Shown: piece by piece, positions 1,731 to 11,115 of the stretch | Position numbering within the stretch: position 1 is the stretch's first letter | Layout: every line of letters starts with the position of its first letter | NCBI GenBank assembly: GCA_012513195.1 | Contig: JAAZCR010000281.1 | Location: 1-11,115, forward strand | Origin: Bacilli bacterium | GTDB taxonomy: Bacteria > Bacillota_I > Bacilli_A > Haloplasmatales > Haloplasmataceae | Length of the DNA: 11,115 nt | Direction: 5' to 3' | Notes under the pieces: model-generated | Seen by the model: the letters and a program-made list of their open reading frames with translations, nothing else | Told to the model about the DNA's origin: nothing | The model's database searches: none | Position numbers and translations under genes: made by a program

Positions 1731-1973
1731 ATGATTGAAGTTAAGAAAAGTTATGATGCCAAAGATGCTAAGTGTAGCGAAATCATCATTAATCTTTACT
1801 TAATGATGAAAGAATTACAACCTGGAGAAGTTATTGAAGTTACTACTTACGATTTAGCTGCTTATGATGAAATATCCGCTTGGTGCAGGATGCAAGTACA
1901 TGATTTAATGTACTATGAAGAACTTGGTATTCTAAAATCTAAATTTTACATTCAAAAAGGGAAGGGTAGATAA
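1731..1973 (+). CDS. TusA/SirA-like sulfur (selenium?) carrier protein
   Basis: An 80-residue cytoplasmic protein of the TusA/SirA/YedF fold. The N-terminal segment YDAKDAKCSEII aligns with the family's LDxRGLxCPxP motif and keeps the key cysteine (Cys15), but both prolines of CPxP are missing. The C-terminal half has EISAWCRMQVHDLMYYEELG, matching the family's usual AWCRxxGHxLL segment and giving a second cysteine (Cys52). TusA proteins pass persulfide sulfur between partners. Close relatives in Sec-using bacteria form the N-terminal half of YedF, a protein that co-occurs with selenium metabolism genes. Here the DsrE half follows as a separate gene 2 bases downstream. A role in selenium or sulfur trafficking is inferred from this pairing and from the Sec operon next door. 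The ribosome site GAGGGAG (1719-1725) lies inside the end of the HAD gene. Confidence 0.8.
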   Translation: MIEVKKSYDAKDAKCSEIIINLYLMMKELQPGEVIEVTTYDLAAYDEISAWCRMQVHDLMYYEELGILKSKFYIQKGKGR

Positions 1974-1975
1974 AC

Positions 1976-2332
1976 ATGAAAACCGCAATTAGCATTACTT
2001 ACGGTAAAAATAATGCTGAACGAGCAACATTTGCGTTTATGATGGCTAATAATAGCCTTGCTTCAGGTCACGAAACAGTAGTATTCCTCAATCTCGACGG
2101 GGTATATTTAGCAACAGATGGTTATGCAGATGATATACACGTTGAGGATTTACCAAAGATGAAAGATTTGCTTGATAAGTACCTTGATAATGGTGGCGTT
2201 CTATGGGTATGTGGCACATGTTTTAATAAGAGAAAACTTAATCCTGAAAGTTTAATCAAAGGTGCGAGAATTATTGGACAAGTAACCTTCTTAGAATTTT
2301 TGTCAAAAGGTGCAGTTTGTATTAATTACTAG
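1976..2332 (+). CDS. DsrE-like protein (YedF C-terminal-half-like)
   Basis: A 118-residue protein of the DsrE/DsrF-like fold. It has the Rossmann-like N-terminus MKTAISITYG and a central strand VLWVCGTC, where Cys79 and Cys82 form a CxxC pair at the position where DsrE-type proteins carry their active cysteine. Cys115 is near the C-terminus. DsrE-family proteins accept persulfide from TusA-type partners, and in YedF both domains are joined in one chain of about 200 residues. Here the TusA-like protein is encoded just upstream (2-base gap), so the pair looks like a split YedF. The gene is complete, ends with TAG, and is followed at once by a terminator. Participation in selenium supply to SelD is an inference from context; sulfur transfer is the alternative. 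Confidence 0.75.
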   Translation: MKTAISITYGKNNAERATFAFMMANNSLASGHETVVFLNLDGVYLATDGYADDIHVEDLPKMKDLLDKYLDNGGVLWVCGTCFNKRKLNPESLIKGARIIGQVTFLEFLSKGAVCINY

Positions 2333-2357
2333 AAAGCGATTGAAAAATCGCTTTTTT
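2333..2357 (+). terminator. Intrinsic terminator of the HAD-tusA-dsrE operon
   Basis: A 9-bp stem AAAGCGATT / AATCGCTTT (2333-2341 and 2346-2354) with a GAAA tetraloop is followed by more T (2352-2357 is a run of six). It begins on the base after the TAG stop and separates this operon from the tRNA-Sec transcript. Confidence 0.9.
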
Positions 2358-2415: not shown

Positions 2416-2444
2416 TTGATTTTGTTTATTATTTCACATATAAT
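2416..2444 (+). promoter_or_regulatory. Promoter of the tRNA-Sec / sel / grd transcription unit
   Basis: TTGATT (2416-2421), a 17-base spacer and TATAAT (2439-2444) form a good vegetative promoter. Transcription would start near 2451, about 10 bases before the mature 5' end of tRNA-Sec. No other convincing promoter or terminator is visible from here to the end of grdA. Confidence 0.75.
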
Positions 2445-2461
2445 AGTAAATGGATATCTAT

Positions 2462-2557
2462 GGAAGCACTTATGTACTGGTGTACATACAGGTCTTCAAA
2501 ACCTTGTTGTGAGTGTAAAAGCTCATAGGTGGGTTCGATTCCCATGTGCTTCCGCCA
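2462..2557 (+). tRNA. selC: tRNA-Sec (anticodon TCA)
   Basis: This 96-base RNA folds as a bacterial selenocysteine tRNA. It has an 8-bp acceptor stem (GGAAGCAC / GTGCTTCC) and a 6-bp D stem (ATGTAC / GTACAT) with a four-base TGGT loop. The anticodon loop CTTCAAA carries TCA at 2496-2498. The long variable arm is TGTGAGT / GCTCATA (7 bp, two G-U pairs), and the 5-bp T stem carries the loop TTCGATT. Discriminator G and CCA are encoded (2554-2557). The 8+5 acceptor/T arrangement and long D stem are hallmarks of tRNA-Sec. It is charged with serine, converted by SelA and delivered to UGA codons by SelB. One oddity is that the outermost anticodon-stem pair (2489/2505) is a C-U mismatch. The tRNA is the first gene of the apparent sel-grd transcript and ends only 14 bases before the earliest possible selD start. 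Confidence 0.97.
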
Positions 2558-2567
2558 TTTTTATTTT

Positions 2568-2576
2568 AGAGGTGAT
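2568..2576 (+). promoter_or_regulatory. Ribosome binding site that bears on the selD start
   Basis: AGAGGTGAT contains an 8-base match (GAGGTGAT) to the complement of the 16S rRNA 3' end. It includes the GTG at 2572-2574, which is the only in-frame ATG, GTG or TTG between the tRNA and the Sec codon. If these bases serve as the ribosome site, initiation would fall at an ATT codon (2578 or 2581; spacing 5 or 8 bases) rather than at that GTG. Confidence 0.6.
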
Positions 2577-3627
2577 TATTATTAACACCAGAGATGAATT
2601 AATCGACATCACAAGATATAGTTGTGGCGGTGGTTGAGCTGCTAAAGTAGGACCGGAGGTCCTTGGTCGTATCGTTAGTAAGTTACCAAAACAAGTTGAT
2701 GCTCGCCTTGTTTTTGGATTTGAAAATAGCGATGATGCAGCAGTTATTGAACTTGATGAGCACCGTTACTTAATCAACACGGTCGATTTTTTTACGCCCA
2801 TTTATCATGATCCCTATGTATTTGGTCAGATAGCTAGTGCTAATGCCCTAAGTGATATTTATGCGATGGGTGGTACTGTGCTAAATTGTTTGAATATATT
2901 ATCATTTCCTTCCGAAGTAAATGAAAATATAATTTCGGAGATTTTACGTGGTGCTTACGATAAAGTTAACGAAGCTAATGGAGTAATTGCGGGTGGTCAT
3001 ACAATTTCTACTGACCACATTATTTATGGTTTATCGGTTAATGGTTTAGTTGAGAAAAGTAAATTGAAGACTAATAGTGGTGCTTTACCACAACAAAAAC
3101 TCATTTTAACAAAAAAAATCGGTACAGGAATCTATTCAAAAGAAATTAATATCAATAAAGATGCAGAAGATTGTCAAGAAGTAGTTAAATCAATGATTAC
3201 ACTTAATAAAAAGGCTTGCGAAATTATGCATAAATACCGTGTCAGTGCTGTGACAGATATCACGGGATTTGGCTTAGTTGGTCATTTATGCGAAGTTGCC
3301 CTTGCAAGCAATGTATCAATTACGATTTACTTAGACAGTATACCATTATTTAAGAGAACAAGAGAACTAGCATTAAAATACCCGAATGGTGGTATGAAAC
3401 GTAATTTTGCCCATTTCAGTAAATATGTTGAAATTTCTCATAATATAAATTCACAAGAAAACATCAATATCCTATTTGATCCACAAACCAGTGGGGGATT
3501 ATTAATAGTAGTTGATGAAACAGATGCTGATAAGTTATTACATGATTTACATCAAGAAGGAATAACAGCAGCTAGTATCATTGGGGAGACAACAATCTTA
3601 ACTGATAAACATCTTAAGGTAAAGTAA
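2572..3627 (+). CDS. selD: Selenide, water dikinase SelD (selenoprotein, in-frame TGA = Sec)
   Basis: SelD makes selenophosphate from selenide and ATP, the selenium donor for SelA. The frame reads through TGA at 2635-2637: before it, TRYSCGGG; after it, AAKVGPEVLGRIV. This aligns with the E. coli YSHGAGCGCKISP region, so Sec replaces catalytic Cys17, and Ala stands where E. coli has Cys19. Sec is residue 22 counted from GTG. Further family motifs are NSDDAAV, TVDFFTPI, SANALSDIYAMGG, GGHT, DITGFGLVGH and FDPQTSGG. With GTG at 2572 the protein has 351 residues, normal for SelD. That GTG lies inside the best ribosome site, so an ATT start at 2578 or 2581 is a serious alternative. A start at Met2866 would lose the catalytic N-terminus and is wrong. 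A SECIS-like hairpin follows the TGA. selA starts 17 bases downstream. Confidence 0.95.
2649..2663 (+). promoter_or_regulatory. bSECIS-like hairpin after the selD Sec codon
   Basis: A perfect 6-bp stem AGGACC / GGTCCT with the loop GGA starts 11 bases after the TGA at 2635-2637; the loop begins 18 bases after it. Stem position, short loop and G as first loop base fit the general model of bacterial SECIS elements, which bind the C-terminal winged helices of SelB. Confidence 0.75.
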
Positions 3628-3644
3628 GGAAAAAGTGAGAGATT

Positions 3645-5057
3645 ATGAGTGATCTATATCGGGAGATACCTCAAGTTGCGAAATTATTAGAAGATGCATC
3701 TATTAAAAGTTTTTTATCACGTTTTTATATATCAGAGATAAAAGAAGTTATTGACGAGACTTTAGCTGATCTAAGAACAAAGATTAAAAATAACGAGTTA
3801 AAAGAAATAAAATATGAAGAAGTTGTTAGATTAATTGTTGAAAAATTAAATAAAAAGCAAATCTATTCACTAAGAAAAGTCATTAATGGAACGGGTACTA
3901 TTATACATACCAATTTAGGCCGTTCCTTATTATCTGAAGCAGCTATAAAACACGTAATTGAAGTCTGTGCTAATTATAACAACCTTGAATATAACCTCGT
4001 TAAAGGTGAACGTGGGAGCCGCTATGAGCATGTCGAGGGAATGATGGCACGCTTAGTAGGTAGTGAAGCATGCCTTGTAGTAAACAATAATGCGGCTGCA
4101 GTATTACTTTCTGTTTCCGCGTTTGCGAAAAATAAAGAGGTAGTTGTTAGTCGAGGTGAATTAGTGGAAATTGGTGGTTCCTTCCGTATTCCAGAAATAA
4201 TTGAAACATCTGGGGCAATCTTACGGGAAGTAGGAACAACCAATCGTACGCATTTAAGTGATTATGAAAAAGCTACTAATGATAATACAGCCATTTATTT
4301 AAAAGTTCATCCATCTAATTATCATATTATTGGTTTTACAAACAATGTAACTAACGACGAGATAGTTTCCCTTGAGAAGAAGATGAATAAAGAACGAGTG
4401 AAACCAATTATAACCATAGAAGATTTAGGTAGTGGGTGTTTAATTGATTTAAGTTCAAGTGGTTATAAAGAAAATCTTGTAAGCGAATCGATTAAAAGTG
4501 GTATTGATTTAGTCACCTTTAGTGGTGATAAGTTACTAGGTGGACCACAAGCAGGTATTATCGTCGGCAAGAAAAACTTAATAGATCAATTAAAGAAACA
4601 TCCATTATTACGCGCTTTTAGAGTTGATAAAATGACTATTGCGGCTTTAGAAGGTACGATTCGCGATTATTTTGATGAAGAAAAGGCAAAAAGAACTATT
4701 CCGACATTAAAGATGATCTATCTGTCGGAAAGTGAACTTCGTGAAAGAGCCTTGATGTTGTATGAACGTATTAAGTGTATCGAAGGTATAAGTAGTGAAG
4801 TTATAAGAGTGTATTCTACAATAGGTGGTGGCTCATTGCCACATAGTCAATTAGTTAGTTATGGGGTAGTGATTAAAATTAGCAATTATCCCGCTCATGA
4901 AATAGAGAGAGTATTAAGAAATCAAGAAGTACCAATTATAGGTAGAATTGTGAATGATAAATTTTTGCTCGATGTGCGAACACTTCTTGATTCTGATATA
5001 GATATTATAATTAATACCTTAGATAGAATCGGGAGAAGTCTATGGAAAACTTCGTAA
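3645..5057 (+). CDS. selA: L-seryl-tRNA(Sec) selenium transferase SelA
   Basis: SelA is a pyridoxal-phosphate enzyme that converts seryl-tRNA-Sec to selenocysteyl-tRNA-Sec using selenophosphate, working as a large cytoplasmic ring. The 470-residue length is normal for the family. The segment TFSGDKLLGGPQAGI contains the PLP lysine (Lys296, beside Lys295 of E. coli). Other family segments are RKVINGTGTIIHTNLGRS (about 77-94), YNLVKGERGSRYEHVE (about 116-131), VNNNAAAVLL and IEDLGSGCLID. The N-terminal helical part (about 1-65) corresponds to the tRNA-binding domain. The ribosome site is weak (GGA at 3628-3630 is far, GTGAGAG is poor), so translation may depend on coupling with selD. The end overlaps selB by 16 bases in another frame, which suggests coupling to selB. 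Confidence 0.97.
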   Translation: MSDLYREIPQVAKLLEDASIKSFLSRFYISEIKEVIDETLADLRTKIKNNELKEIKYEEVVRLIVEKLNKKQIYSLRKVINGTGTIIHTNLGRSLLSEAAIKHVIEVCANYNNLEYNLVKGERGSRYEHVEGMMARLVGSEACLVVNNNAAAVLLSVSAFAKNKEVVVSRGELVEIGGSFRIPEIIETSGAILREVGTTNRTHLSDYEKATNDNTAIYLKVHPSNYHIIGFTNNVTNDEIVSLEKKMNKERVKPIITIEDLGSGCLIDLSSSGYKENLVSESIKSGIDLVTFSGDKLLGGPQAGIIVGKKNLIDQLKKHPLLRAFRVDKMTIAALEGTIRDYFDEEKAKRTIPTLKMIYLSESELRERALMLYERIKCIEGISSEVIRVYSTIGGGSLPHSQLVSYGVVIKISNYPAHEIERVLRNQEVPIIGRIVNDKFLLDVRTLLDSDIDIIINTLDRIGRSLWKTS

Positions 5058-6895
5058 TTGGTACAGCAGGACATGTCGATCATGGAAAGACTTCACTTAT
5101 AAAAGCTTTAACAGACATTAATACAGATACATTATTAGAAGAACAACGACGGGGTATATCCATCAACTTAGGATTTGCCTATCTACCTTTGGATGATAAG
5201 TTAACAGTGGGTATAGTCGATGTTCCTGGACACGAACGTTTTATCAAGAATATGTTAGCTGGTGTCTGTGGCATGAATCTCATTCTCTTAACTGTCGCTG
5301 CTGATGATGGTATCATGCCGCAAACACGGGAACATATGGAAATCATTGAGTACCTTCATATCAAAAATATTATTCCAGTTGTTACCAAAACAGATTTAGT
5401 AACAAGAGAACGAGTAGAAGAAGTTAAAGAACAGATAAAAAAAGAGTTTCATATCGATAAAATCGTTGAGTTTAGTATCAACAAACCTGAGACAACAAAA
5501 GATGTATTACATGCAATAAGAGAAAATTACTTAGCTTACGAACATGAAGAAAATCAAATTTTTAGGTTACCAATCGATAGAGTATTTGTTGTTAAAGGTT
5601 TCGGAGTAGTAGTTACAGGTTCATCATTATCTGGTCAGGTGAAAATTGGTGATGAATTAGAAGTTTTGCCTAACAAATTTAGAGTTAAAGTTAAAGGCAT
5701 TGAATGTTTTAATCAAAAGCGATTGATTGCCTATAAACATATGCGCGTAGCTTTAAATCTAGCAGGAGTAAAAAAAGAAGATTTATCGCGCGGTAAAATG
5801 CTTACCACTGTAGGTGCTTTTTCTAAGCCTACAAAAATTATTGATGTAAAGATCACAACATCAAAATACCTCAAAGACCCATTAAAACATTTAGAACATG
5901 TTAAGTTTTACTATTTAGCTAATGAAATTAAGTGTCAGGTAAAACTACTAGAACATAAAGAAGTAAGTGGTTCAATGACTGTTTATGGTCAGTTGCTGCT
6001 TGAAGAAGAGATTTATGTAAGCATCAATGATCTTGGTGTATTAAGAAGACTTAATCCCGTGCAAACAATAGCGGGTGTTGAGATTATTAATGTATTTGGT
6101 GAGTATGTAAAGAAAACTGATACTCATTATCTCGACTTTTTAAAATTATTCGAAAAGAAAGATTATGATAAGTTAGTACCCTTATTGATTGATAAATATC
6201 CATTTATAAGCATTGATGAACTTAAAAATAGACTAAATCTTACCAATAAAGAGTTGTTAGAGAAAATTATTGAAAAAGTAGGTTATCTCTTAGTTAATCA
6301 ATCATGCCTTACTTTTAATAAATTTAATGAAATAAAGCAAAATGTATTAATTAAAGTGAAAGAGTATCATGAAAAACATTCTTATGAACAAGGATTAAAT
6401 AAATTGTTACTTCAACAAGAATTAGGACTAGAACATTTAAACACCAAGGTTTTCACTGAACTATTAGAAAAGTTACCTGAAATTATAATTATAAACGATA
6501 AGGTTAAAATGAAAGATCACATTGTTAGATATAATCCAGAGGAACTTGTAGTTGTTAATAACATTAAGAAATTTTTAGATAGTTTTAATTATAAACCACC
6601 AAAGATAAACGATGTTCTTATAAATGTCAAAGGTAAAAATGTAAAAAGCATATTCTATTCATTAATAAAGAATCAAGAGTTAATTAAGTTAGATGAAGAA
6701 TATTGTTTAACCAAAGAGAAATTCGCGACGATGCTAAGTTTACTTGATGACTATTTTAAATCTCATTCCATCCTCACCCTAAATGATGCACGAGATCTCC
6801 TTGACACAAGTAGAAAATATTTAGTGTTAATCTTAGAGTACTTAGATAAGATTGGTTATACAAGAAGAGTAGAAGAGGGTCGAGTAAAGAAATGA
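5042..6895 (+). CDS. selB: Selenocysteine-specific elongation factor SelB
   Basis: SelB is the GTPase that carries selenocysteyl-tRNA-Sec to the ribosome and binds the SECIS hairpin after UGA. The 617-residue length is typical. G motifs: GHVDHGKTS (residues 10-18), RGISINLGF (37-45, switch I), DVPGHE (60-65) and TKTD (115-118). EF-Tu-like domains 2 and 3 follow to about residue 350. The rest is a set of winged-helix repeats ending in [25 protein letters not shown], the RNA-binding end. The start is the ATG at 5042 inside selA, with GGGAGAAG just upstream. The stop is TGA (6893-6895), overlapping the grdX ATG as ATGA. A TAA lies one codon further in frame, so accidental Sec insertion at this TGA would add only two residues. 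Confidence 0.97.
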
Positions 6896-7269
6896 TATTA
6901 ATTGTCACTAATAATCCACAAGTATATGAAATGTGTAAAGATAAAAATATTATTTATTTAGAAAATCAAGGGTTTGTCGATGTGTTAGGTAAAGTAAGAG
7001 ATTTAGTACATCATAACTACATGTTACTAACACATCCATTAGCAAGTAATCTTATGCCTGATAAAACTATCTATAAAACAGTTATACTAGAGCAGGGTTC
7101 AGAGTTAGATTATGGTTCATTAAATGTAATTGAAGATGCCGTTTTTTTTGCGAGTAAGGTAAAACGTAAGTTAAGTACAACATTATTAACTGAAGATATA
7201 TTAGAAGACATGCAACTTGTTGATTTAGAGATGGTAAAAGATGTTTTACAGGAAGTAATGGAGGGGTAA
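6892..7269 (+). CDS. grdX: GrdX family protein
   Basis: This 125-residue soluble protein matches the GrdX family, whose genes sit beside glycine, sarcosine or betaine reductase genes; the biochemical role is unknown. Family-like features are the N-terminal strand ILIVTNNP, the segment VDVLGKVRDLVHHNYMLLTHPLASNLMPD (about residues 29-57, with THPL at 47-50) and the following IYKTVILEQ strand. It has no signal peptide or membrane segment. Its ATG overlaps the selB stop by four bases, so it is very likely translated by coupling with selB, joining the Sec machinery to the glycine reductase genes. trxB begins 2 bases after its stop. Identification is from recalled family pattern and gene context. 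Confidence 0.85.
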   Translation: MILIVTNNPQVYEMCKDKNIIYLENQGFVDVLGKVRDLVHHNYMLLTHPLASNLMPDKTIYKTVILEQGSELDYGSLNVIEDAVFFASKVKRKLSTTLLTEDILEDMQLVDLEMVKDVLQEVMEG

Positions 7270-7271
7270 AT

Positions 7272-8207
7272 ATGATACGTGAATGTGATGTATTAATTAT
7301 CGGTGCTGGTCCAGCAGGATGTAGCGCTGCGATTTATGCAGCAAGAGGAAAACTCGATACTATAGTATTAGACAAAGGTAACCCCGGTGGGCAAATTGTG
7401 ATTACCGCTGAAGTGGCTAATTATCCTGGTTGTCCTGATGATACTGGACCTGACCTAATGAAACGAATGGTTAAACAGGCTGAGGATTTTGGAGCCAAGT
7501 TTATTTGTGATGAAGTAATCGGGGTTGATTTTTCTGGTAAGATTAAAATCGTTAAAACACCAGAAAATGAGTACCACGCTAAAGCTGTTATCATTGCGAC
7601 AGGTGCTAATCCACGAAAACTAGGTTGTCCTGGTGAGTTAGAATTTACAGGAAAAGGTGTATCCTATTGTGCTACATGTGATGCGGACTTTTTTCGCGAT
7701 TTAGAAGTGTTTGTAATTGGTGGTGGTGACACTGCCGTTGAAGAAGGTATGTATTTAACTAAATTTGCGCGTAAAGTTTATTTAGTACATCGACGTGATG
7801 AATTGAGAGCTGCGAAAAGTAATCAAGAAAAAGCCTTAAAAAATGAAAAAATGGAATTTATCTGGAATACAGTGGTTGAAGAAATCAAAGGGGATGGAGT
7901 AGTCCAATCCATCGTTTTACGAAATGTGAAAACTGGAGAAATCACTGAATACCATGCAGATGAAGACGATGGTATTATTGGTGTCTTCCCGTTCATTGGC
8001 GTTATTCCTAACTCAAAATTATTTGAAGGAATTATCAACATGGAAGATGGTTATATAAAGACTAATGATAAGATGGAAACCAATATTCCAGGTGTTTATG
8101 CAGCAGGAGATGTACGGGTTAAGACCTTAAGACAAGTGGTAACCGCAACAAGTGACGGAGCGATTGCGAGTTTCGAAGCTGAGAAATATATTTCAGATAA
8201 CTTTTAA
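7272..8207 (+). CDS. trxB: Thioredoxin reductase (glycine reductase operon type)
   Basis: This flavoenzyme passes electrons from NAD(P)H to thioredoxin. The 311-residue length is normal for low-molecular-weight TrxB. The FAD-binding motif is IIGAGPAG (residues 9-16). The redox disulfide is CATC (Cys133 and Cys136) in [11 protein letters not shown]. The pyridine-nucleotide site has [12 protein letters not shown] (about 148-159) and HRRDELRA (173-180); the HRR arginines usually indicate NADPH preference. The C-terminal FAD motif AAGDVR is also present. The ribosome site GGAGGGG at the end of grdX is strong, and the gap to grdX is 2 bases. In glycine-fermenting bacteria this enzyme and the adjacent thioredoxin re-reduce selenoprotein A after each cycle. 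Confidence 0.96.
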
Positions 8208-8220
8208 ATGGAGGGATAAT

Positions 8221-8535
8221 ATGTTAGAAGTTACCAAAGACACATTTGATCAAGAAGTACTACAAGCAAGCGGCTTAGTACTTGTTGATTATTGGAATGA
8301 AGGTTGTGAACCTTGTAAGGCATTAATGCCACATATGGAAGAATTAGCGAAAAAGTATCCTGAAGTAAAGTTCTGTAAATTAAACACTTCATTAGCACGT
8401 AGACTTGCCATTTCCCAACGTATTCTTGGTCTACCTACGATTTCCTTATATCGTAATGGTGAAAAGATTGATGAAGTAACAAAGGAAAACGCGACAATTA
8501 AAAACATTGAGGATATGATTAAGAAGTATTTATAG
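8221..8535 (+). CDS. trxA: Thioredoxin of the glycine reductase system
   Basis: A 104-residue thioredoxin. The active site is GCEPC (Cys29, Cys32) instead of the common WCGPC, and the cis-proline is in GLPTI (Pro72). Atypical GCxPC sites are known from thioredoxins of glycine-reductase organisms such as Eubacterium acidaminophilum and Clostridium relatives. Electrons from TrxB would be passed to oxidised GrdA. I chose the ATG at 8221 because GGAGGGA (8210-8216) precedes it and [13 protein letters not shown] is a normal thioredoxin N-terminus. The same frame is open back to 8152, but that extension overlaps trxB and shows no thioredoxin likeness. The gap to trxB is 13 bases. Confidence 0.96.
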
Positions 8536-8552
8536 GAGAGGGAGGGGGTTGA

Positions 8553-9839
8553 ATGAAACTCGAAATTGGTAATATTTATGTAAAAGACGTGGTATTGAGT
8601 AATAGAACAGCACTTGAAGACCATGTACTTTACATAAATGAAGATGATATTAAGAAAATTGTCTTAGAAGATGAACGAATTAAAAACATCACGGTTAAAT
8701 TAGCGAAACCAGGTGAAAGTAAACGTATCACGCCAGTTAAAGATGTTATTGAACCAAGAGTTAAAGTAGATGGTGGTGGAAGCATCTTCCCAGGCATCAT
8801 CGGTAAGGTTGATACGGTTGGAAGTGGTCGTACTCATGTATTAAAAGGGACTGCTGTAGTTACCGTTGGTAAGATTGTTGGCTTCCAAGAAGGTATTATC
8901 GATATGTCTGGTCCAGGTGCTGATTATACACCATTCTCAAAATTACTAAATATTTGTGTCGTTATTGAGCCTAAGGAAGGGCTTAAACAACATGATTATG
9001 AAACAAGTGCCCGCTTAGCAGGCTTAAAAGTTGCTTCTTTTATCGGTCAAGTCGCAAAAGATATTGAACCTGATGAAGTCCTAACATATGAAACAAAACC
9101 AATTACAGAGCAATTAGCTGAATATCCAGATTTACCAAAAGTTGGTTATGTCTACATGTTACAAACCCAAGGATTGTTACATGATACTTATGTCTATGGT
9201 GTTGATGCTAAACAAATTATACCAACTTTGATTTATCCAACTGAAATAATGGATGGTGCAATTGTAAGTGGAAACTGTGTATCAGCATGTGATAAAAATA
9301 CGACTTACCATCATTTAAATAATCCTATCATTGAAGAGTTGTATAAACATCATGGCGTTGATCTGAACTTTATTGGTGTTATTATTACCAATGAAAACGT
9401 CTATCTAGCGGATAAAGAAAGATCTTCAAATTATACTGCAAAACTAGCTAAGTATTTAGGTTTAGATGGAGTAATAATCTCCCAAGAAGGATTTGGTAAT
9501 CCCGATACAGATTTAATTATGAACTGTAAGAAAATTGAACTAAATGGTATTAAAACTGTTATCGTAACTGATGAGTACGCAGGCCGTGATGGATTAAGTC
9601 AATCTTTAGCTGATGCTGATCCACTTGCGACCGCAGTAGTTACGGGTGGTAATGCGAATGAAGTAATTGTTTTACCACCGATGGATGAAGTTATTGGTAC
9701 TTACGATTATGTAAACACCATCGCTGGTGGTTATGATGGATCATTAAAACCTGATGGATCCATTGAAGTTGAAATCCAAGCGATTACAGGCGCAACCAAT
9801 GAATTAGGATATAATAGATTAAGTGTGAAAACAATTTAA
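8553..9839 (+). CDS. grdE: Glycine reductase component B, subunits alpha and beta precursor (GrdE)
   Basis: GrdE is the proprotein of substrate-specific component B. It is cleaved in front of a cysteine that becomes a pyruvoyl group, which holds glycine as a Schiff base. The 428-residue length is typical. The processing region reads IVSGNCVSACDKNTTYHH, with the expected cysteine at residue 242, giving chains of about 241 and 187 residues. The N-terminal half has GGGSIFPGIIGKVDTVGSGRTH. Towards the C-terminus, VTDEYAGRDGLSQSLADADP and a final AITGATNELGYNRLS are family-like. GrdG (sarcosine) is a close homologue, so glycine specificity is inferred from the grdE-grdA-grdB order. The ribosome site is the purine-rich GGAGGG at 8541-8546, and grdA follows after 12 bases. 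Confidence 0.95.
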   Translation: MKLEIGNIYVKDVVLSNRTALEDHVLYINEDDIKKIVLEDERIKNITVKLAKPGESKRITPVKDVIEPRVKVDGGGSIFPGIIGKVDTVGSGRTHVLKGTAVVTVGKIVGFQEGIIDMSGPGADYTPFSKLLNICVVIEPKEGLKQHDYETSARLAGLKVASFIGQVAKDIEPDEVLTYETKPITEQLAEYPDLPKVGYVYMLQTQGLLHDTYVYGVDAKQIIPTLIYPTEIMDGAIVSGNCVSACDKNTTYHHLNNPIIEELYKHHGVDLNFIGVIITNENVYLADKERSSNYTAKLAKYLGLDGVIISQEGFGNPDTDLIMNCKKIELNGIKTVIVTDEYAGRDGLSQSLADADPLATAVVTGGNANEVIVLPPMDEVIGTYDYVNTIAGGYDGSLKPDGSIEVEIQAITGATNELGYNRLSVKTI

Positions 9840-9851
9840 AGGAGGAAAAAC

Positions 9852-10331
9852 ATGAGCATCTTTGAAAACAAAAAGTATATTCTCATTGGTGACCGGGATG
9901 GCATTCCTGGTGAAACTTTACGTGCAGTAGTTGAGCACATTCCTGGTAGCGAAGTTATCTTTGCGACTACTGAGTGTTTTGTCTGAACGGCCGCAGGGGC
10001 TATGGATTTAGAAAATCAAAAACGGATTAAAGAACTAACGGAAACCTATGGTCCTGAAAATATTATCGTCGTTTTAGGTGCTGGTGAAGCTGAAATTAGC
10101 GGTCTCGCAGCTGAAACAGTTACACTAGGCGATCCCACTTATGCTGGTTGTTTAACGGGTGTAAGTTTAGGATTAGGTGTCTATCATGCGGTTGAACCAA
10201 TCTTTAAAGCTGCTTGCCCACAAGATGTCTATGAAGAGCACCTTGGAATGATGGAAATGATTCTAGATATCGATGGTATTTCCAATGAAGTTAGTTCAAT
10301 CCGTGAACAATACTCACAATACAATAAATAG
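9852..10331 (+). CDS. grdA: Glycine reductase selenoprotein A (GrdA, in-frame TGA = Sec)
   Basis: GrdA is the small selenoprotein that takes the carboxymethyl group from component B as a selenoether and hands it to component C, forming acetyl phosphate; thioredoxin then reduces it. The frame begins at the ATG at 9852 after GGAGGA (9841-9846), passes TGA at 9984-9986 and ends at the TAG at 10331, giving 159 residues. The site is [18 protein letters not shown]: Cys42 and Sec45 form the CxxU pair exactly as in known GrdA proteins. A downstream [24 protein letters not shown] segment, and [10 protein letters not shown], are also family hallmarks. A start at Met10002, which a program treating TGA as stop would choose, loses the active site. 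A hairpin separates it from grdB. Confidence 0.97.
10005..10017 (+). promoter_or_regulatory. Candidate weak bSECIS hairpin after the grdA Sec codon
   Basis: GATTT-AGA-AAATC is a perfect but AT-rich 5-bp hairpin whose loop starts 24 bases after the TGA at 9984-9986 and has G in the second loop position, within the usual bacterial range. An alternative closer hairpin is GGCC (9989-9992) with GGCT (9998-10001), but its loop starts only 7 bases after the TGA. Neither is as convincing as the selD element. Confidence 0.35.
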
Positions 10332-10352
10332 TTTGATTTTCTAATCCATAGA

Positions 10353-10375
10353 AAAAGGCTCAGGTTGAGCCTTTT
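10353..10375 (+). terminator. Hairpin with short T tract between grdA and grdB
   Basis: AAAAGGCTCA / TGAGCCTTTT is a perfect 10-bp stem with the loop GGT and only four T at its end, followed by purine-rich DNA. It can act as a partial terminator or as a 3' stabiliser of the upstream RNA. No promoter is evident between it and the grdB ATG at 10409, so some transcription must pass through or start from an unrecognised site. Confidence 0.7.
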
Positions 10376-10408
10376 AAGAAAGAAAAAGAATAGAAGAGAA
10401 GGGATAGT

Positions 10409-11115
10409 ATGGCATATAGAGTAGTTCATTACATTAATCAGTTCTTTGCCAATATTGGTGGCGAAGAGATGGCCCATATAACCCCAGAAGTACGTACGGG
10501 CGCACTTGGTCCAGGTTTGGGGCTCATGCGTGAATTTCAAGGTGAAGTAGAAATCGTCGCAACCGTCATCTGTGGTGATTCCTACTTTAATGAAAATCCT
10601 GAAGCAGCCATTAAAACTATTATTGAGTTAATTAAACCTTTTAATATTGATGGTTTTATCGCTGGTCCGGCATTTAATGCTGGTCGATATGGTACAGCAT
10701 GTGGTGCAATCTGCAAAGCCGTTCAAGATGAACTAAAAATTCCAGCGATTACTGGTATGTATATTGAAAATCCTGGTGTAGATCTCTATCGTAAAGACAT
10801 CTACATCATTGAAACCGCAAATGCAGCTACATGTATGCGCAAAGCCTTACCTCTTATGGCTAATCTTATGAAGAAATTACTAAGAGGGGAAGAAATACTT
10901 GATCCTGAAATTGAAGGATATATACCTAAAGGAAAACGCAAGAATTATTTTGCGGAAGAAATCGGAGCAACACGTGCGGTCAATATGCTACTTAAGAAAT
11001 TAAAAGGTGAAGAGTATAAAACGGAATATCCGATGCCTGAATTTGACCGTGTTCCACCAGGAAAAGCTATTAAGGATTTAAGTAAAGCACGAATTGCATT
11101 AGTAACATCTGGTGG
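10409..11115 (+). CDS. grdB: Glycine reductase component B gamma subunit GrdB (partial, 5' end)
   Basis: The first 235 residues of GrdB, the large selenoprotein subunit of component B; the frame stays open to the window end. The start is the ATG at 10409 with AAGGGA at 10399-10404. The N-terminus MAYRVVHYINQFFANIGGEE and the segments VICGDSYFNENPE, FIAGPAFNAGRYGTACG, TGMYIENPGVDLY and PMPEFDRVPPGKAIKDLSKARIA, ending in VTSGG, are characteristic of GrdB and its sarcosine and betaine paralogues. Its Sec codon normally lies around residue 350, beyond this window, so it cannot be seen here. GrdB works with the pyruvoyl chain of GrdE: its selenolate attacks the activated carbon of bound glycine and passes the carboxymethyl group to GrdA. 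Confidence 0.95.
   Translation, partial: MAYRVVHYINQFFANIGGEEMAHITPEVRTGALGPGLGLMREFQGEVEIVATVICGDSYFNENPEAAIKTIIELIKPFNIDGFIAGPAFNAGRYGTACGAICKAVQDELKIPAITGMYIENPGVDLYRKDIYIIETANAATCMRKALPLMANLMKKLLRGEEILDPEIEGYIPKGKRKNYFAEEIGATRAVNMLLKKLKGEEYKTEYPMPEFDRVPPGKAIKDLSKARIALVTSG

Follow-up and report, generated by a model that had tools for sequence, protein, structure and literature searches.

The window analysed here, 11,115 nucleotides from a Bacilli bacterium of the family Haloplasmataceae, is an entire contig (C156) of a source assembly that has 314 contigs and is 91 % complete. Most of it carries, on one strand, a gene for the selenocysteine tRNA (tRNA-Sec, selC) followed by selD, selA, selB, grdX, trxB, trxA, grdE, grdA and the first part of grdB, so that a complete set of genes for selenocysteine (Sec) decoding (selA, selB, selC and selD) stands directly before genes of glycine reductase. 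Behind the grdA stop codon, in the 3' untranslated region (3' UTR), lies a hairpin resembling a bacterial selenocysteine insertion sequence (SECIS), and the bases in front of it are complementary to bases close behind the in-frame UGA of grdA (Table 1). An earlier reading made from the sequence alone (the sequence-only reading) had given this gene list with its gaps and two overlaps (16 and 4 bases), all of which gene calls, ARAGORN, Rfam and family matches bear out; the junctions measure 17 bases for selD-selA, an overlap of 16 for selA/selB, an overlap of 4 for selB/grdX, then 2 (grdX-trxB), 13 (trxB-trxA), 17 (trxA-grdE), 12 (grdE-grdA) and 77 (grdA-grdB). We consider it probable that the block is a single sel-grd operon and that the grdA UGA is read through the hairpin, acting as a tethered SECIS.

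Table 1. Features of the sel-grd block and its upstream edge (window positions)
Feature	Positions	Strand	Basis
Terminator-like hairpin with T-run, closing the upstream HAD-tusA-dsrE genes	2331..2356	+	fold z -3.88
Sigma-70/A-type promoter, TTGATT-17-TATAAT, ahead of tRNA-Sec	2416..2444	+	10/12 consensus match
selC, tRNA-Sec with encoded CCA	2462..2557	+	ARAGORN; Rfam tRNA-Sec, 74.3 bits at 2462-2553
selD, Sec codon TGA at 2635-2637; start ATT 2581 or GTG 2572	2581..3627	+	TIGR00476, 347 bits
selA	3645..5057	+	TIGR00474, 575.8 bits
selB	5042..6895	+	TIGR00475, 339 bits; C-terminal winged-helix domain PF09107, 64.7 bits
grdX	6892..7269	+	NF038093, 110 bits
trxB	7272..8207	+	TIGR01292, 379.7 bits (cut-off 343)
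trxA	8221..8535	+	NF047697, 160 bits
grdE (component B, proprotein)	8553..9839	+	NF040793, 700.8 bits against 780, under the sarcosine GrdG cut-off
grdA	9852..10331	+	NF040748, 228.5 bits; one in-frame TGA
grdA Sec codon TGA, motif C-F-V-U	9984..9986	+	translation
Helix I, 5' strand (bases +14 to +34 past the grdA UGA)	10000..10020	+	predicted pairing
Helix I, 3' strand (immediately 3' of the grdA stop codon)	10332..10351	+	predicted pairing
SECIS-like hairpin in the grdA 3' UTR, 10-bp stem, loop GGU at 10363-10365	10353..10375	+	-12.7 kcal/mol alone, z -4.09
grdB, truncated by the contig end ahead of its own Sec codon	10409..11113	+	gene call, relatives

The hairpin starts 21 bases past the grdA stop codon, and a hairpin is kept in the grdA-grdB gap of all six genomes in which sel and grd are linked and of two in which they are not. 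Across loci its loop reads G, then G or U, then U, while the stem bases vary. A rule for the hairpin picked out 27 of the 33 grdA-grdB gaps of at least 60 bases, where shuffles lead one to expect 0.43, together with 1 of 39 shorter gaps and 342 of 12786 control windows. When the 23 of these 27 cases that share one register were aligned, all seven stem pairs (7/7) varied on both sides, the loop G and U were invariant and covariation reached 0.896 against 0.349 in shuffles; 98.8 % of the cells pair, a figure inflated because the aligned cases were selected for having the hairpin. A covariance model run over 1.6 Mb gave 27 matches at E<0.1, all of them 3' of grdA; 23 are the training sequences and the others are loci L019, L055, L154 and L181. 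In 11 whole genomes it gave nine matches at E<0.001, again all at grdA, eight of them training sequences and both grdA copies of genome G021 included. Elements with a four-base loop, those of L059, L061 and L062 and of four Fusobacteria, escape the model, and L161 is recovered at no better than E 2.1. A low-threshold Rfam scan near grdA gave only matches far under the gathering score (SraG at 21.3 bits, gathering score 50).

The bacterial SECIS (bSECIS) model asks for an apical loop of 3-9 bases with G and then G or U in its first two positions, an upper stem of 4-16 bp, an energy of -7.5 or lower, and a place inside the coding region 16-37 bases from the UGA (PMC13188914). The window hairpin passes the loop, stem and energy rules (GGU, 10 bp, -12.7 kcal/mol) but fails the rule on place, being in the 3' UTR, 376 bases from the UGA in linear sequence, and is therefore SECIS-like but outside the model as defined. 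In G001, a genome of the same genus, and in 13 others, grdB has an ordinary SECIS 18 bases after its UGA with the loop GGU (GGA in L052), which shows the loop that this SelB likely reads. Behind the grdA UGA, a local hairpin of canonical form with an energy of -3 kcal/mol or lower is present in none of 28 copies with the 3' element and in 2 of 52 copies without it. An inverse relation between local SECIS strength and the 3' element had been expected and was not seen, local hairpins being weak in both groups.

The 20 bases preceding the hairpin are complementary to grdA bases +14 to +34 after the UGA, a pairing that we call helix I. When about 110 windows were scanned in each grdA, the window adjacent to the UGA ranked first for 26 of 28 elements and for all seven (7/7) fresh genomes with an element, five of which are close kin; with the first post-stop bases of element-less copies as probe it ranked first in 1 of 51. 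Compared with shuffles, helix I reached p<=0.05 in 24 of 28 elements and p<=0.005 in 18. In 26 of 28 the distance from the end of its 3' strand to the loop is 8-12 bases. In minimum-energy folds from the UGA to the hairpin, 9-20 UGA-proximal bases pair with the 3' UTR in every one of the 28, with a probability of at least 0.98, and the fold of the window (z -5.0) was equalled by none of 100 shuffles. Third codon positions are compensated: among 35 rows, base +15 occurs as A-U in 12, U-A in 9, G-U in 6 and C-G in 2, and base +21 as U-A in 27 and C-G in 5. Over the 20 of these 35 rows that remained once duplicates, near-duplicates and bulged or shifted pairings had been left out, covariation in helix I was 0.247 against 0.151 in shuffles (0/500 as high). 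Registers slid along the sequence pair to at most 45 %, against 87.7 % in the true one. On these alignments and folding models the structure composed of hairpin and helix I is very likely to form.

One possible alternative is that the hairpin binds SelB but serves to regulate translation of grdB, helix I exposing or hiding the grdB start. In 27 of 28 cases grdB does lie downstream of the element, and Thanbichler and Boeck reportedly described in 2002 a SECIS-like element in the E. coli selAB leader that provides a precedent. That hairpin is said, like the window's, not to lie directly behind a UGA; the window's differs in adjoining its UGA through helix I. Yet helix I is found specifically beside the UGA of grdA, the second grdA copy of G021 carries the element with no grdB after it, and in 45 of 52 element-less copies the UGA-proximal bases pair within grdA, far from grdB; we hold regulation of grdB to be improbable. 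A pairing of CCAU with the grdB start codon was tried and dropped, the partner being missing at many grdB starts. Stem-loops between the genes of an operon commonly stabilise or attenuate transcripts, and the hairpin could alternatively be such a stem, setting the ratio of grdA to grdB and unrelated to Sec. In the second trxB-trxA-grdA copy of G021 (L019), where no grdB directly follows grdA, the hairpin is indeed succeeded by a T-run, but there is none after the window stem, helix I lies beside the UGA, and the loop G and U are invariant in the 23 cases in which all seven stem pairs covary, so that a purely stabilising or attenuating role seems very unlikely. In G021 an additional grdE-grdB pair is found nearby, with 40-47 % identity. 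In many Clostridia (L047, L051, L053, L057, L065 and others) TTCCC or TTTCCC stands soon past the grdA stop codon and the ribosome-binding site of grdB contains GGGGGGAA, a pattern that suggests that translation of grdB is coupled to that of grdA.

A number of observations weigh against decoding through a tethered SECIS. The hairpin rule was fixed after the first set had been viewed, and at L066 it chose an adjacent hairpin, the element being assigned by hand. In fresh Fusobacteria and Clostridia the frozen rule was passed by 3 of 9 long gaps, where 0.13 would be expected, and by 1 of 26 short gaps; among the other long gaps, four Fusobacteria have a 5-bp stem with the loop AGGU and two Clostridia are without such a hairpin. 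Two of five measures on the hairpin alignment were matched by shuffles (34 and 92 of 500), as two of five on helix I did not rise above them. Helix I fails the rank test at L059 and L084 and exceeds p 0.05 against shuffles in 4 of 28 elements; 6 of 20 rows do not form its pair at +14 and 10 of 20 do not form that at +24, its 3' register was picked for best pairing, and exchanging coding segments cuts the pairing by 0.46 of 10 only. Kin-related rows are not independent of one another. The second G021 element may be a terminator, and the window itself has a weak local hairpin, GAUUU-AGA-AAAUC, after the grdA UGA. A SECIS has also been predicted for two Photobacterium grdA genes (figure legend in PMC1242214), and bacterial SECIS predictions were given for all families known to another study, grdA among them (PMC1088965).

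The grdA copies that lack the 3' element seem to have a comparable layout within the coding sequence. For 45 of the 52 the strongest partner of the UGA-proximal bases begins between +141 and +176, and the stretch after the in-gene site forms a hairpin in 49 of 52, the commonest loops being AGUUA (25), GUU (8), AGUUG (4), GGUC (3) and GGUU (3). In six copies (L050, L075, L082, L092, L101 and L104) the best pairing falls at about +74 to +117, and two of these, L075 and L101, retain the later in-gene hairpin too; pairing at the internal site is weak in copies whose element is in the 3' UTR. Protein conservation confounds in-gene pairing because the site is coding sequence; compared with synonymous-codon shuffles, helix I reached p<=0.05 in 28 of 52 copies and the in-gene hairpin in 27 of 52. 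Among 32 fresh copies the partner started at +140 to +175 in 17, at +136 or +139 in three more and at +70 to +110 in 10, and 29 of the 32, two Photobacterium copies included, had a hairpin with GUC, GUU, AGUUA or AGUUG within about 30 bases. The grdA of Peptoclostridium acidaminophilum (L243) and that at L199 count against a general scheme, none of the three sites being reached by best pairing. The 3' UTR type is hosted by Haloplasmataceae, an Izemoplasma, Brachyspira, several Fusobacteria and some Clostridia. In the first set, 36 of the 46 copies with the +150 site have glutamine before LGL and none of the 28 with the 3' UTR element do; if the tethered reading is true, the 3' UTR form releases the protein sequence at this place. 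We favour, with some reserve, the view that GrdA is decoded by a tethered SECIS throughout bacteria, at one of three alternative sites, about +75 to +125, about +150 to +190 or the 3' UTR.

The case for one operon begins with gene order, which was compared in a first set of 100 genomes, source genome included, eight of them Haloplasmataceae. Full-length GrdE was found in the source genome and six others (G082 gave weak matches only), and class-wide in 8 of 395 genomes, source genome included. Within the family, GrdE and full-length SelB occur together in five of the eight genomes (source, G001, G003, G004 and G006) and are both absent from the other three (G002, G007 and G005, the last 85 % complete). 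In all four of the other family genomes with grd (4/4) the ten genes from tRNA-Sec to grdB lie on one strand in the same order. The window and G001 have gmk-HAD-tusA-dsrE next to the block; G004 has a mannose-type sugar transporter there, G003 a trehalose enzyme, and G006 a YedF-like gene with corA. The block stays whole while its flanks vary among genera. As the window is a single one of the assembly's 314 contigs, the linkage could in principle be an artefact of assembly or binning, but the same order with like junctions in four other assemblies makes this hardly credible. The search for adjacent selB and grdX that the sequence-only reading had proposed found it in every other family genome with grd and also in the Izemoplasma genome G193, where the order as a whole is spread over two contigs. 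There selA-selB-grdX-trxB-trxA-grdE-grdA-grdB stand on one contig, and a second holds a YedF-like gene, tRNA-Sec, selD and a selA truncated by the contig end; the two selA pieces look complementary, and we infer that they join. A comparison of flanking genes, bearing on whether the G193 contig belongs to its genome, gave no match outside G193, and selD was found in 0 of 8 relatives of G193, which leaves the Izemoplasma case isolated.

Transcription of the block as one message would start at the promoter that ends 17 bases upstream of tRNA-Sec. The only sites on the + strand of the window with a 10/12 match are at 969 and 2416-2444. The core TTCACATATAAT (window 2433-2444), which overlaps the -10 element, precedes selC in 5/5 linked family genomes and occurs elsewhere, among 241 loci, at two Brachyspira loci only; its identity in the five family genomes goes beyond the needs of a promoter, and it is therefore perhaps an operator. 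A second possibility is two transcripts, the grd half starting within selB or grdX and the adjacency reflecting shared history. In C. difficile, where grd is known to be under CcpA control, the grd operon is free-standing and has a CcpA binding site within grdX (PMC3510511), a situation that speaks for separate transcripts, as do the weak promoter-like sites inside the block and a 10/12 site in G001, inside selB and 148 bases upstream of grdX. The promoter scan of the window, taken whole, does no better than chance, giving 42 sites, fewer than the 51.6 of shuffles, which counts against the one-operon reading. On the other side, in all six linked genomes (6/6) the selB and grdX frames share 1 or 4 bases, and the 600 bases around the grdX start hold 0 to 3 promoter-like sites in each of the six, at no common position. 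Two transcripts are, in our view, rather unlikely, and co-transcription of the whole block is likely. The claim of one message made in the sequence-only reading is supported, short of proof, by the shared order, the tight junctions and the selC promoter kept in relatives. A palindrome resembling a catabolite-control (cre) site lies at 2374-2387 and is seen by eye also in G001 and G004 (three of five); catabolite control through it was dropped as a candidate, the window having 12 such matches against 7.2 expected, with as many in 19 of 200 shuffles.

In a scan of named genomes, among the best 80 loci, 63 of which have at least 7.5 kb of upstream sequence, selB lies directly upstream of grdX on the same strand at five (L043, L044, L046, L052 and L093), the first three of these being genomes already in the counts above. 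Any sel match was found at 12 of the best 80, that of L104 being weak, and SelB was present in all 50 grd genomes searched (50/50) that were drawn from them. In four Lactobacillales loci (L050, L056, L118 and L075) sel genes are divergent from, or within, the grd clusters; these layouts look like independent linkages, and the Lactobacillales loci are separate from the window clade in the SelB tree. In G009 and G021, of another family, selC-selD-selA-selB occur in the same order, apart from grd. Trees built from 42 genomes unite the linked genomes and two unlinked ones in one clade (support 100/100 for SelB, 100/99 for GrdE), within which the six linked genomes group at 100/99 for SelB and more weakly, at 94/84, for GrdE. 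The block may be a transferable module, as the sequence-only reading suggested: its flanks vary around an intact core, and the Izemoplasma case is isolated. The linked genomes, however, form a single SelB clade, which vertical descent with losses would equally explain. SelB of this clade (L041, L042, L013-L016) has a very long branch that neighbours two Fusobacteriota, and GrdE does not; different deeper histories or fast evolution may account for this. GrdE was found on six plasmid-labelled records, with no full unit in the two regions viewed (H2 and H3).

The sequence-only reading had also placed the supply of Sec beside its main consumer, which accords with the presence of SelB in five of five family genomes with grd and none of three without. 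Of 11 genomes, 4 have formate dehydrogenase alpha, and the gene contains an in-frame TGA in just one of them, G009, whose sel and grd genes are unlinked; the six linked genomes yielded no Sec formate dehydrogenase, other selenoprotein families not having been searched. The source genome, checked for Sec genes elsewhere as that reading had suggested, yielded one full-length selB and one grdE-type gene. Family members without grd or Sec decoding (L228, L229 and L230) retain a SelD without in-frame TGA, so other selenium use is likely there; a 2016 survey lists no SelD for Mollicutes, where NCBI places Haloplasmataceae (PMC5029168).

The consumer itself is identified with help from G001, because the contig stops within grdB and leaves grdC and grdD outside the window. 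In G001 they follow grdB (NF040746, NF040747), and the full-length GrdB has Sec at U349 in the motif UGTCTRC; the marks of a glycine reductase operon are all found when CFVU in the window's grdA is joined with grdB UxxCxxC, grdC and grdD from G001. By the family cut-offs for G001 GrdB (TIGR01917, 684 against 602; NF040794, 703 against 800; NF040795, 570 against 775) the enzyme would be of the glycine type and not the sarcosine or betaine type, the sarcosine cut-off being decisive because a named sarcosine GrdF passes TIGR01917 (696) and also NF040794 (858). A sarcosine reading of grdE-grdB was rejected on the cut-offs for GrdE and GrdB, and window GrdE is 70-73 % identical to four other GrdE against 63 % to a named GrdG.

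The selD gene has a single in-frame TGA and no ATG where a start is expected; the alternative GTG at 2572 is in frame and overlaps the ribosome-binding site. The ATT at 2581 aligns with an ATG in G001, and G004 likewise has ATT there, so that AUU initiation (window 2572-2583) is possible. Genes for TusA and DsrE lie immediately upstream of tRNA-Sec (window 1731-2332; L014:17108-17539; L240:5557-5895), the window DsrE having no match among NCBIfam families. In G006 and G193 the gene before selC corresponds to the C-terminal half of the selenium protein YedF (99.6 and 91.9 of 110 bits, below the cut-off), hinting at a selenium-delivery partner.

Our current working hypothesis is that positions 2416-11115 act as one operon for Sec supply and glycine reductase, transcribed from 2416-2444. 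Excision of tRNA-Sec would take place at the transcript's 5' end, while SelD, SelA and SelB would be produced beside the enzyme that needs them; such co-transcription and tRNA processing we infer. In the grdA message helix I, made of the 20 post-stop bases and bases +14 to +34 after the UGA, would loop out the remaining 311 bases of grdA and leave the GGU-loop hairpin one base from the base of the helix. From UGA to loop the path would then run over 13 unpaired bases, a single linker base and the 10 bases of one stem arm, a total of about 24 and an ordinary SECIS spacing. SelB carrying Sec-tRNA would bind the GGU loop and deliver Sec, the UGA thereby being decoded as Sec through the tethered SECIS; binding of this hairpin by SelB and decoding through it are presumed.

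The idea of a sel-grd linkage is not new. Shewanella sp. MTB7 too has Sec genes beside grd, and horizontal transfer of Sec genes together with glycine reductase has been inferred by the authors of the Shewanella and Photobacterium studies (PMC10059138, PMC1273633). The arrangements differ: in Shewanella selD is inside grd with selA-selB upstream (PMC10059138), in the region of Photobacterium sp. DA100 viewed here selD precedes grdE, and in the window selC-selD-selA-selB all lie 5' and run into grdX. Supply and consumer are likewise together where sel genes stand near, or in one operon with, fdhA as the sole selenoprotein gene (PMC5029168, PMC1794560); the consumer in the window is instead glycine reductase, with two selenoproteins. 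The linked operon of Haloplasmataceae makes a compact natural kit of Sec machinery and client.

A 2026 review places bacterial SECIS in coding regions, typically right after the UGA, with a subset of genes that do not follow the model (PMC13188914). In the literature covered, which also took in PMC8659212, PMC4513850, PMC8124441 and PMC12013277 but not subscription papers on clostridial grdA, so that an earlier description is possible, no bacterial long-range or 3' UTR SECIS was found in the parts available. The window element is like a bSECIS in loop and stem, and in the 16-37 spacing if the loop-out is counted, and unlike it in lying downstream in the 3' UTR and being joined to the UGA region by helix I. 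A tethered SECIS would explain GrdA decoding, would alter searches for selenoprotein genes and would reveal, within bacteria, how the signal can move stepwise out of the gene into the 3' UTR. In archaea and eukaryotes the SECIS is likewise in the 3' UTR (PMC13188914); the window element, in which their motifs were not looked for, has a loop of bacterial type and is tethered to the UGA region by base pairing. If our hypothesis is true, a bacterial SECIS can lie past the stop codon, as it does in archaea and eukaryotes.

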